From Fimbriimonas sp. (lineage in GTDB: Bacteria; Armatimonadota; Fimbriimonadia; Fimbriimonadales; Fimbriimonadaceae), in the NCBI GenBank assembly GCA_029866005.1, contig JARXAE010000024.1:1-64000 (forward strand): a DNA stretch of 64,000 nt, in the 5' to 3' direction. The translations under genes were made by a program, and so were the position numbers. Position 1 is the stretch's first letter. Every line of letters begins with the position of its first letter. The notes under the pieces are model-generated. The model was not told the DNA's origin and did not search any database. It saw only the letters and a list, made by a program, of their open reading frames with translations. Positions 29,386 through 32,701 of this stretch are shown here, one piece after another.

Positions 29386-29460
29386 GGGTCTGTAGCTCAG
29401 CGGTAGAGCAGTGGCCTTTTAAGCCATTGGTCGAGGGTTCGAATCCCTCCGGACCCACCA
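29386..29460 (+). tRNA. tRNA-Lys (TTT)
   Basis: A 75-base cloverleaf with encoded CCA. Acceptor GGGTCTG pairs with CGGACCC (one G-U), D-arm GCTC/GAGC, anticodon stem GTGGC/GCCAT with loop CTTTTAA (anticodon TTT), T-stem GAGGG/CCCTC around TTCGAAT. Confidence 0.97.
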
Positions 29461-29546
29461 CCTGGAAATCTTAACTCCCTGCACCTTAGCGTTCATTTGG
29501 AGCTTCTCCAAATGATTCTCAAACATTTTCAGGGCTTCGCTCGCCG

Positions 29547-29552
29547 TATAAT
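29547..29552 (+). promoter_or_regulatory. -10 box of the response regulator gene
   Basis: A perfect TATAAT. No good -35 box is seen 16-18 bases upstream. Transcription would start near 29559-29560, two or three bases before the TTG start at 29562, so the mRNA may be almost leaderless. Confidence 0.45.
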
Positions 29553-29561
29553 CGCCTTGAA

Positions 29562-30227
29562 TTGCGCATTTTGGTGATTGAGGACGACGAGGTGATCGGC
29601 GAGCGTCTGCGGAAGACGCTGGCGAAGGAAGGATACGTCGTCGATCTGGCCAGTGACGGGGAGGCGGGACTTCAGCAGGCTCAACGAGAGTCTTATTCGC
29701 TCATCATCTGCGACGTTATGATGCCCAAGCGCGACGGTTGGTCTGTCGTCCAGAAGCTCAGGGCAGACCGGGCGAAGACGCCGATTTTGATGTTGACTGC
29801 GAGGGATGCAGTCGAAGATCGCGTTCGAGGGCTGGACATCGGTGCAGATGACTATTTGGTCAAGCCATTTGACTTTAACGAGCTACTTGCTCGCGTTCGA
29901 GCGTTGCTGAGACGAGACAAGCCAACGAAGTCGTCTCGGATGACTTTTGATGATCTCGAGATTGACTCTGCCGGAAAGACGGTTCGTCGAAATGGAGAAG
30001 TATTGAAACTCACGCCAAGGGAGTACTCGTTGTTGGAGGCTCTTGTCCGAAATCGTGGTCGTGTGCTTTCCAGAGAGGTCATTATTGACCGAATCTGGAA
30101 CGACGATGAATCCATGTCGAACACAGTCAACTTCCACGTTACAGCCCTGCGCAAGAAAATTGACTCTGGGCGTGAGAAGAGCCTAATTGAGACCGTGCAT
30201 GGTTTTGGTTATCGGATTGGAGATTGA
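29562..30227 (+). CDS. OmpR/PhoB-family response regulator
   Basis: A 221-residue regulator. The receiver domain begins RILVIEDDEVIGERL and has the phospho-acceptor Asp51 in IICDVMMPKRDG, the Thr in MLTARD and the Lys in YLVKPFDF. A PhoB-type winged-helix DNA-binding domain follows (LKLTPREYSLLEALVRN, SMSNTVNFHVTALRKKID, TVHGFGYRIG). The start is TTG 29562. Its TGA overlaps the ATG of the sensor kinase by one base, so the two form a classic two-component pair. Confidence 0.95.
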   Translation: MRILVIEDDEVIGERLRKTLAKEGYVVDLASDGEAGLQQAQRESYSLIICDVMMPKRDGWSVVQKLRADRAKTPILMLTARDAVEDRVRGLDIGADDYLVKPFDFNELLARVRALLRRDKPTKSSRMTFDDLEIDSAGKTVRRNGEVLKLTPREYSLLEALVRNRGRVLSREVIIDRIWNDDESMSNTVNFHVTALRKKIDSGREKSLIETVHGFGYRIGD

Positions 30228-31714
30228 TGTCTTTTCGAACCCGCCTCATTCTGATCAATTCCCTTGCGGTGTTTTTACTGCTTGGACTAGGGATGGGATT
30301 CTTGGTGATTCGGACTCAGAAGGTTTTTCTCGAATCGATTGACCGAGATTTGTCGAACCGAGCCACGAAGATGGGTCGCGGGGGCGGGCCAGGACCTCAG
30401 GGTCCTGATGGACCTCTGGGACGCAATGGACCGCCAGGTTCTATAGGGGGAGGAAATCCGATGCGGAATCCTCCGGGGGGATTCAACGATGTTGAGCGTC
30501 CGATTATCCTAGCATCGGACGGTAGTCCACGAACGCCTAATTCAAGGGTGCTCGATCCGCTTGGCGTTAAACGAGTCCGTGGCGGTCGTCCCTATTTCTC
30601 AGATGTCCAAGTTGATGGGGAACTGGTGCGAGTTCTGACGCAACAGTTTAGACGGCCGTTCAATGGTGTTGATGAGGAGCCAGAAGAGAATTTTGTCCAG
30701 ATTGGGCACTCTTTAAGAGATTTCGACCGCATGAAGGAGACTCAGGCGGGAGTAGTTCTGATCCTGCTACCTGTTGGAGTTTTGCTTTCGGCGCTCATCG
30801 GCGCATTTTTGGCCGAGCGAGCGTTGTTACCCGTTCGCAGGTTAGCCGGAGCTGCGGCAACCATTACTGGAGAGAACATGGATGTCCGTCTCGATGCATC
30901 TTCAGGTGACGAGATTGGGCAACTCTCGGCGACGTTTAACTCGATGCTCGATCGCTTGCAGGGGTCTTTTCGAGATAGAGATAGGGCGAATCAAAAGCTC
31001 GAAGCCAGCTTGGAGGCACAGAAGCAGTTTGTTGCGGATGCCTCGCATGAGCTTCGCACCCCCCTAGCAAGGCTGAGGCTGACCACGAGTGGAGCGTTAC
31101 AGCAGGATTCTGACCCAGCGGAGTTAAGAGAGGCATTGCAGATTGCTGATCGAGCAGGGGTGTCGATGACGCGTCTTGTCGATCAGCTCCTTGCACTGGC
31201 TCGGCTTGATCAGAAATCAGATCTGAGCACTGATAGCTGCTTTGTGCGGGAATTCTTGGAAGAAGCGAAGGGGATTTTGAAGCCACTCACGCCTGGACTT
31301 GAAGTTAGCATCCAATCAAACGCGAGGGTTCGGGGGTCTTCAAGTGATCTTGCCCGGGCGGTAATCAACTTAGTTGATAACGCTCGACGCCATTCCCCGC
31401 CGGAAGCCCCGATCCGGGTCAGTACTTCGCTTAATGGGGATTCCGCGATTGTGTCGGTACGAGATTCCGGAGAAGGAATCGAACAAGAGCACCTCCAGCG
31501 GCTGGGCGAGCGGTTCTATCGGGCGGATGAGCACCGGAGCCGAAAGGACGGTGGAGCAGGGCTCGGGCTGTCGATCACGAAAGCAATTGTTGAACGATCG
31601 GGTGGAACGTTGCGCATCGAGAGCGTCGTTGGCTCAGGCACAACGGTTGAACTCATCCTGCCCATTTTTTCACAACTCGACGAATCAAATAAATCCCAAA
31701 CATCTGTTTCGTAA
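30227..31714 (+). CDS. Membrane sensor histidine kinase with collagen-like periplasmic insert
   Basis: A 495-residue HisKA kinase. Two membrane segments (about residues 7-25 and 175-197, VVLILLPVGVLLSALIGAFL) bracket a periplasmic domain. That domain starts with a Gly/Pro-rich stretch around residues 48-88 (GPGPQGPDGPLGRNGPPG), which resembles collagen Gly-X-Y triplets. HAMP follows, then the phosphorylated His274 in ADASHELRTPLAR, and ATP-binding motifs NLVDNARRHSP, RDSGEGIEQEH and GGAGLGLSI. It is translated with the preceding regulator. The next gene encodes a glycine-rich secreted protein that may be its target or its signal. Confidence 0.94.
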   Translation: MSFRTRLILINSLAVFLLLGLGMGFLVIRTQKVFLESIDRDLSNRATKMGRGGGPGPQGPDGPLGRNGPPGSIGGGNPMRNPPGGFNDVERPIILASDGSPRTPNSRVLDPLGVKRVRGGRPYFSDVQVDGELVRVLTQQFRRPFNGVDEEPEENFVQIGHSLRDFDRMKETQAGVVLILLPVGVLLSALIGAFLAERALLPVRRLAGAAATITGENMDVRLDASSGDEIGQLSATFNSMLDRLQGSFRDRDRANQKLEASLEAQKQFVADASHELRTPLARLRLTTSGALQQDSDPAELREALQIADRAGVSMTRLVDQLLALARLDQKSDLSTDSCFVREFLEEAKGILKPLTPGLEVSIQSNARVRGSSSDLARAVINLVDNARRHSPPEAPIRVSTSLNGDSAIVSVRDSGEGIEQEHLQRLGERFYRADEHRSRKDGGAGLGLSITKAIVERSGGTLRIESVVGSGTTVELILPIFSQLDESNKSQTSVS

Positions 31715-31753
31715 AGTAACCAATGTAAAGGAAAACCTTTGGAGGAAACTCAA

Positions 31754-32701
31754 ATGGAACGAACTCAACGAACAATTACTCGACTCTTCGCAATCACCGC
31801 TCTGGTGGCAGCTTTCGCAACCTCGTTCGGACAAGGCGGCTTTGGCGGCCCTCCACAAGGCGGACCAGGAGGTCCCGGTGGTCCTGGTCAAGGCGGTCGG
31901 CAAGGCGGACCTGGTGGACCTGGCCAGCAGTTTAGAATGCCACGCGGCCCACAGTTACTGCGACATCCAGACGTTCAGAAAGAGCTGAAGCTTAGCGATG
32001 CTCAGATGAAAGCTATCGACCAAGCATTCCCACAAATGGGCGGTGGTCAAGGCGGTCGAGGTGGCCAAGGCGGACCTGGCGGACCTGGTGGCGCACAAGG
32101 TGGTCGCGGTGGCCAAGGCGGTCAAGTCGGCGGTCAGGGTGGTCGCGGCGGCCAAGGCGGCGGACAAGGTGGTCCTGGTGGTCCTGGCGGACAGCAAGGT
32201 GGCCCAGGTGGTCAACGAGGCGGTGGACAAGGTGGACCAAATCCTCAGAACGACGCAAAGATCAAGGAGATTTTGAGTCCAAAGCAGTACACACGCTTCA
32301 AGCAGATCGAGATCCAAGTCGTTGGACCACAGGCGTTCATGATGCCCGACGTCGCAGAGCGGCTCCAGATTAGCGAAGATCAGCACGAAGCAATCCGCGA
32401 CATCATGGAAGAGGCTCGACCGGAACCCGGCCAACCAGGGCAGCAACCGCCCGATCCATCGAAGTTCATGAAGGCGGTTATGTCCAAGGTTCTTGCGGTT
32501 CTCTCTGAAAAGCAACGATCTCAGTACAAGGCGATGGTTGGACGAGAATTCTATCTGACCACGAAGCCGCCAATGAACGGCCCAGGCGGCCCGGGAGGCC
32601 CAGGTGGCCCAGGTGGCCCGGGAGGATCTGGAGGACCTGGCGGACGTCGGGGCGGCCAAGGCGGACCTGGAGGAACTCCTCCTCCGTCCAACGCCAAATA
32701 A
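31754..32701 (+). CDS. Secreted Gly-rich protein with LTxxQ (Spy/CpxP-like) motifs
   Basis: A 315-residue exported protein: signal peptide ending AAFATSFG, then alternating GGPGG/GGQGG tracts and helical segments. The helices carry four (L/I)SxxQ motifs: LSDAQMKAID, LSPKQYTRFKQ, ISEDQHEAIRD and LSEKQRSQYKA. This is the hallmark of the Spy/CpxP periplasmic family that senses misfolded envelope protein, although here glycine-rich tracts separate the motifs. ATG 31754 has an ideal GGAGG site (31741-31745). It follows the two-component pair by 39 bases, with an AAAGG/CCTTT mini-hairpin between, and is followed by a terminator. I infer a Cpx-like circuit. Confidence 0.82.
   Translation: MERTQRTITRLFAITALVAAFATSFGQGGFGGPPQGGPGGPGGPGQGGRQGGPGGPGQQFRMPRGPQLLRHPDVQKELKLSDAQMKAIDQAFPQMGGGQGGRGGQGGPGGPGGAQGGRGGQGGQVGGQGGRGGQGGGQGGPGGPGGQQGGPGGQRGGGQGGPNPQNDAKIKEILSPKQYTRFKQIEIQVVGPQAFMMPDVAERLQISEDQHEAIRDIMEEARPEPGQPGQQPPDPSKFMKAVMSKVLAVLSEKQRSQYKAMVGREFYLTTKPPMNGPGGPGGPGGPGGPGGSGGPGGRRGGQGGPGGTPPPSNAK
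32041..32234 (+). repeat. Glycine-codon repeat tract
   Basis: Imperfect GGTGGCCAAGGCGG-type units encode runs of GGQGG, GGPGG and GGRGG in the LTxxQ protein. A second tract lies near 32578-32660. Length variation by slippage between strains is likely. Confidence 0.8.

Follow-up and report, generated by a model that had tools for sequence, protein, structure and literature searches.

The three genes considered here lie within a stretch of 64,000 nucleotides of Fimbriimonas DNA, referred to below as the window, and encode an OmpR-type response regulator, a sensor histidine kinase and an exported protein which we call the partner (Table 1); a tRNA-Lys gene (29386-29460) sits 5' of the regulator gene. 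In domain content the regulator and kinase make up an ordinary OmpR-type two-component set (receiver and Trans_reg_C; HAMP-HisKA-HATPase), and the translational linkage of the two genes proposed in an earlier note on this DNA was borne out by TGATG at 30225-30229, in which the TGA stop of the regulator gene overlaps the ATG of the kinase gene. A domain search of the window's own genome (2.8 Mb in 38 contigs) identified only five HisKA kinases.

Table 1. Genes, low-complexity tracts and predicted regulatory sequences at the locus (positions in the window).
Feature	Position	Strand	Remarks
OmpR-type response regulator	29562..30227	+	TTG start; Pfam Response_reg 4.1e-32, Trans_reg_C 1.7e-25
Sensor histidine kinase	30227..31714	+	HAMP 194-245, HisKA 264-329, HATPase_c 372-479 (Pfam)
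Sensor Gly/Pro-rich tract	30374..30478	+	About residues 50-84, directly after TM1 helix; pLDDT <50 at residues 53-84
Exported tandem Spy/CpxP-type protein with Gly-rich tracts (partner)	31754..32701	+	Family profile Spy 2.1e-7 (PDB); helical core pLDDT >90
Main Gly-rich tract of partner	32045..32233	+	Residues 98-160, between motifs 1 and 2; relatives carry helices there
Direct-repeat box CAAATGATTCTCAAACA, predicted operator of response regulator	29509..29525	+	Upstream of regulator gene
Predicted -10 TATAAT	29547..29552	+	9 nt before TTG start; invariant in window, G001, G018
Direct-repeat box CAAATAAATCCCAAACA, predicted partner-gene operator	31686..31702	+	Inside tail of kinase gene
Predicted weak -10 TAAAGT	31712..31717	+	9 nt after box; overlaps kinase stop codon

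The earlier note had also assigned the pair to a Cpx-like system, and here the model scores ruled Cpx membership out, as the kinase reached 127.9 bits against a cut-off of 486 for the CpxA model (NCBIfam). Heavy-metal models came nearer: the best-scoring NCBIfam models for both kinase and regulator were of the heavy-metal CopR/CopS type (CusRS/CopRS), although both fell below their cut-offs (TIGR01387 and TIGR01386, 249.1 vs 279.2 and 208.1 vs 292.55, respectively). The AlphaFold model of the kinase consists of a TM1 helix (residues 3-50), a disordered tract (residues 53-84), a small alpha/beta external domain and TM2, and a Foldseek search with the full kinase as query gave, among the matches listed, kinase-core matches only.

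Named relatives of the locus come from Armatimonadetes and from uncultured Fimbriimonas assemblies. The gene-order survey that the earlier note had called for upheld the association of partner and kinase pair within the family, where the two adjoin in about 25 of 37 genomes (an approximate count, based on the loci fetched); in other families the partner is mostly alone. The usual order is regulator-kinase-partner, and a more distantly related armatimonadete (L164) has the same gene order as the window; the order is partner-regulator-kinase in L046 and L054, the latter from another family, and divergent in L064, L070 and L146.

The exported partner and the Gly/Pro-rich tracts

The description of the third gene product as an exported protein with four (L/I)SxxQ motifs was accurate, exactly four being counted (LSDAQ at residue 80, LSPKQ at 174, ISEDQ at 206 and LSEKQ at 250). 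A profile search had been set beforehand as the refutation test of the proposed Spy/CpxP relationship, and similarity exists: the profile of 20 partner relatives returned Spy (2.1e-7) and CpxP (0.0018) among its top matches in the PDB, and 15 of 20 relatives matched PF07813 at E 0.01 or better (best E 2e-8). The top structural matches of the partner model were Spy, STV and CpxP over about residues 189-270, at Z 5.4-6.8, where a Z near 6 is modest for helical proteins; CnrX was present in the match list at Z about 4, and Foldseek with the partner model gave no match at E below 1. Because the window protein alone was under the gathering cut-off of PF07813 (19.7 vs 24.3 bits, E 0.0015), its sequence is best described as that of a distant relative of Spy/CpxP and not of a certified member.

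Two units can be told apart in the alignment of the partner family, and both have V.KEL.L[ST]..Q as N-terminal motif and IL...Q as C-terminal motif. Spy, which functions as a dimer, carries one such motif pair per chain, and the partner therefore reads as two tandem Spy units. Judged by sequence, it looks like a tandem in which a Gly tract takes the place of helices: 40 of the 63 residues of the main tract are Gly, this tract is predicted to be disordered, and the helices flanking it have pLDDT mostly >85. Helix-like sequence is kept between motifs 1 and 2 in L163 (Planctomycetota) and L068 (another family of the same order), both of which exceed the Pfam LTXXQ cut-off of 24.3 bits, with 33.9 and 30.6 bits, respectively. 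Since the helices that the tract replaces build the cradle in Spy, the chaperone activity of the partner may, by analogy, be reduced. His, Cys and Met residues are few in the partner, and no metal-site residues were recognised in it. Additionally, Verrucomicrobial proteins (L165-L168) have a partner-related LTxxQ-like region fused to an AhpC/TSA thioredoxin-like domain.

The Gly+Pro fraction of the window kinase reaches 0.67 in 30 residues, compared to 0.13-0.30 in 14 other kinases. Across the linked loci, the richest 30 residues held 43-80% Gly+Pro in 25 kinases and 13-30% in 14 other kinases of the sampled genomes (p 1.5e-7, to be read with the relatedness of the linked kinases in mind, as they are not 25 independent cases). 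The position of the tract is kept among linked kinases, and the tract is special to these and their close relatives. The earlier note had described Gly-Pro-X-rich triplets at the start of a collagen-like sensor domain. The triplets were confirmed, with nine in-register G-X-Y triplets opening the external part (residues 50-76, nt 30374-30454), where the chance of at least seven at the composition of the tract is 0.0074; however, just 5 and 4 triplets are present in two kinase orthologues of 78% identity, and for this lack of conservation the collagen-like description was rejected.

The Gly fraction of the kinase tract covaries with that of the linked partner (Spearman 0.66, n=24), and the relationship persisted in independent contrasts as a phylogenetic correction (r=0.55, permutation p 0.0021). 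The partial correlation on GC was 0.58, so GC is not the explanation. Between the kinase tract and an unlinked paralogue of the same genomes the correlation was -0.09 (n=9); for these nine genomes the value with the linked partner was 0.57, which is not significant. This covariation supports functional coupling of the kinase and partner tracts, as distinct from contact. It backs, indirectly, the suggestion of the earlier note that the two tracts may interact. It is possible, though doubtful, that both tracts are instead neutral low-complexity expansions which drift together via local replication slippage or composition. The lengths and sequences of both do vary widely between relatives, some members have little of either, and the partner of L164 is without the internal Gly tract; yet the tract of the kinase family keeps its place, the covariation is left unexplained by GC and is absent for unlinked paralogues, and DNA coding for GGPGGPGG does not occur in the 2.8-Mb genome outside the partner gene. 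We regard as improbable the stronger proposal that kinase and partner recognise each other through these two co-evolving Gly/Pro tracts, for example by polyglycine-II-like bundling, such that a contact between disordered tracts, and not a folded interface, sets the gain of the sensor.

Direct-repeat boxes and the genes behind them

The strongest new evidence is a shared predicted operator together with its target set. The sequence CAAATN6CAAACA has two exact matches in the window, one before the regulator gene and the other before the partner gene, against 0.01 expected; the same predicted operator in front of both genes agrees with the feedback-type arrangement which the earlier note had put forward. 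The aligned promoters show CAAAYA-N5-CAAAYA, followed at the partner gene by 9 nt and then the weak -10, and this spacing is kept in L039, L040, L044, L047, L049, L072 and L164; the window regulator gene has 21 nt instead of 9 between box and TATAAT. The regulator-gene box is conserved in G001 and is one base off in G018. With either half-site form counted, boxes were found upstream of 16 of the 25 partner genes and 15 of the 28 regulator genes of linked loci (0.08 and 0.11 expected from shuffles, respectively), and none was found in the linked loci L051, L054, L064, L070, L144, L146 and L157. As the box pattern was seen before testing, the genomes of relatives and a reversed-pattern control are the independent tests. 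In G033 the partner gene and the kinase pair are on separate contigs, and the partner gene is still preceded by a box, which is consistent with trans control by the regulator, although the binding protein is not thereby proved.

A palindrome near 29494-29514, CATTTGGAG-CTT-CTCCAAATG, was also considered as an operator and rejected, being conserved in neither G001 nor G018. In one clade (L041, L042, L050, L052 and L065) the half-sites are CTCAY instead of CAAAY, a possible case of regulator-operator co-evolution. In several box promoters, including that at 29547-29564, the start codon follows the -10 after only 7-9 nt, which suggests leaderless transcripts, and for the regulator gene at 29562 the distance from -10 to TTG makes a leaderless transcript probable. 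Two further LTxxQ-type proteins are encoded in the same genome away from the kinase pair (L002:1435-2160 on G000:C31, and G000:C15:90866-91366); no box lies upstream of the L002 gene.

Other targets were sought with a 32-nt pattern of the box plus -10, allowing at most one mismatch, with the reversed pattern as control. This resulted in 5 sites in the own genome and 28 in six relatives, compared to 0 and 4 for the control, and most sites sit directly 5' of genes for exported proteins. Directly behind the five sites of the own genome are genes for the partner, a multicopper oxidase-AhpC fusion, an exported protein of 226 aa, a YHYH protein and a protein with weak similarity to thioredoxin, and further exact boxes were found before a di-haem oxidoreductase lipoprotein gene and before a metallophosphoesterase gene followed by a YHYH/EF-hand gene. 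The families recurring behind boxes in relatives are YHYH, DHOR, metallophosphoesterase and the 226-aa family, with HupE/UreJ behind the box in one relative; 3 of the 28 sites in relatives (L225, L230 and L235) are without a fitting target. None of the box-bearing genes was seen to encode a metal exporter. The exported oxidoreductases in this set suggest envelope redox or metal stress as a candidate signal.

One exact box, at G000:C27:88499, was rejected as a target, since it falls within a gene of the opposite strand and was taken as chance. The fusion of a multicopper oxidase with an AhpC/TSA-type domain (L204:1790-3799 on G000:C10) begins directly behind its predicted box, and its transcript is probably leaderless. 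The 226-aa exported protein (L205:1399-2076; orthologues L226 and L232) is conserved, has no Pfam match and carries the box in three genomes.

A candidate envelope-sensing circuit

We consider it reasonably probable that the kinase, the regulator, the tandem Spy/CpxP-type partner and the box-bearing exported targets form an autoregulated envelope-sensing circuit, as supported at the level of sequence by gene architecture, Spy/CpxP homology, the shared operator, the recurrent target set and tract covariation. Phosphotransfer, binding of the box by the 29562-30227 regulator, direct contact, its inhibitory sign and the signal are parts that we infer. The kinase would sense the extracytoplasmic state and phosphorylate the regulator, which would then bind the direct repeat of 11-bp period and raise expression of its own operon, of the partner from a promoter inside the kinase tail, and of a group of redox- or metal-related exported proteins. 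The partner would most likely bind the external domain of the sensor, with the Gly/Pro tract either contributing to the contact or acting as a flexible tether; the bound partner would damp the sensor until titrated off by damaged or unfolded clients, or by a ligand.

Exported proteins of the Spy superfamily modulate an adjoining regulatory system in ZraP-ZraSR and CnrX-CnrYH, systems that rely on an NtrC-type regulator (ZraR) and an ECF sigma factor (Cnr), respectively. The window likewise places such a protein beside a regulatory system, but its regulator is OmpR-type and its partner is without recognised metal-site residues. Regulator and kinase resemble CusRS/CopRS in their best-scoring models while remaining under both cut-offs, and we know of no LTxxQ partner in CusRS. 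The alternative of a copper or metal-stress system of this type, in which the partner would be a metal-binding sensor like ZraP or CnrX, appears rather unlikely. Both nearest models are of heavy-metal subfamilies, and boxes precede the multicopper oxidase, His-rich YHYH proteins and, in one relative, HupE/UreJ; against this stand the sub-cut-off scores, the lack of a metal exporter among box-bearing genes and a partner poor in His, Cys and Met. This alternative concerns the signal and is compatible with the autoregulated circuit.

With Spy (PF07813) the partner shares LTxxQ-type motifs and a predicted helical hairpin (family profile E 2e-7), but it consists of two fused units, the long helices of unit 1 being replaced by Gly-rich sequence. 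It is unlikely that the circuit only produces the partner, as a holdase or scavenger for the periplasm that is induced when needed (as Spy is by Cpx/Bae), and receives no feedback from it at the kinase: the predicted operator does indicate gene regulation rather than feedback, the exported enzymes encoded by the other targets would not be expected to act on the kinase, and in G033 the partner gene retains its box away from the kinase, yet the partner, unlike the other targets, is closely linked to the kinase, Gly covariation is limited to the linked partner, and the sensor tract is a peculiarity of linked kinases and close relatives.

CpxP of E. coli binds CpxA, from which stress displaces it (PMC4160245). 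The autoregulated circuit proposed here resembles CpxRA-CpxP in its OmpR-type regulator, HAMP/HisKA kinase, adjoining exported partner related to Spy and apparently shared regulator box. It differs in that the partner has two Spy-type units per chain, split by a Gly-rich tract, the kinase has a Gly/Pro tract and scores far below the CpxA cut-off, and the box and exported targets are others; its logic is probably Cpx-like and its component parts not Cpx. Most of the periplasmic accessory proteins known to tune sensor kinases come from enterobacteria and their relatives, and we found no relevant paper on LTXXQ/Spy proteins with two-component systems, or on CpxP in these phyla. Fimbriimonadia (Armatimonadota), a little-studied lineage, would contribute a conserved example, distantly related to these, together with a predicted operator and target set, both of which are testable in a culturable relative, and the paired Gly/Pro tracts offer a natural test of whether low-complexity segments carry sensor-partner specificity. 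Furthermore, the circuit supplies a regulatory context for YHYH-family proteins, on which, alone or with multicopper oxidase, no relevant paper was found in the literature. One YHYH protein behind a box in a relative (L220:1541-2794 on G018:C3) has a C-terminal GGPGG tract and LTxxQ-like motifs of its own, with a Pfam value of only 0.38.
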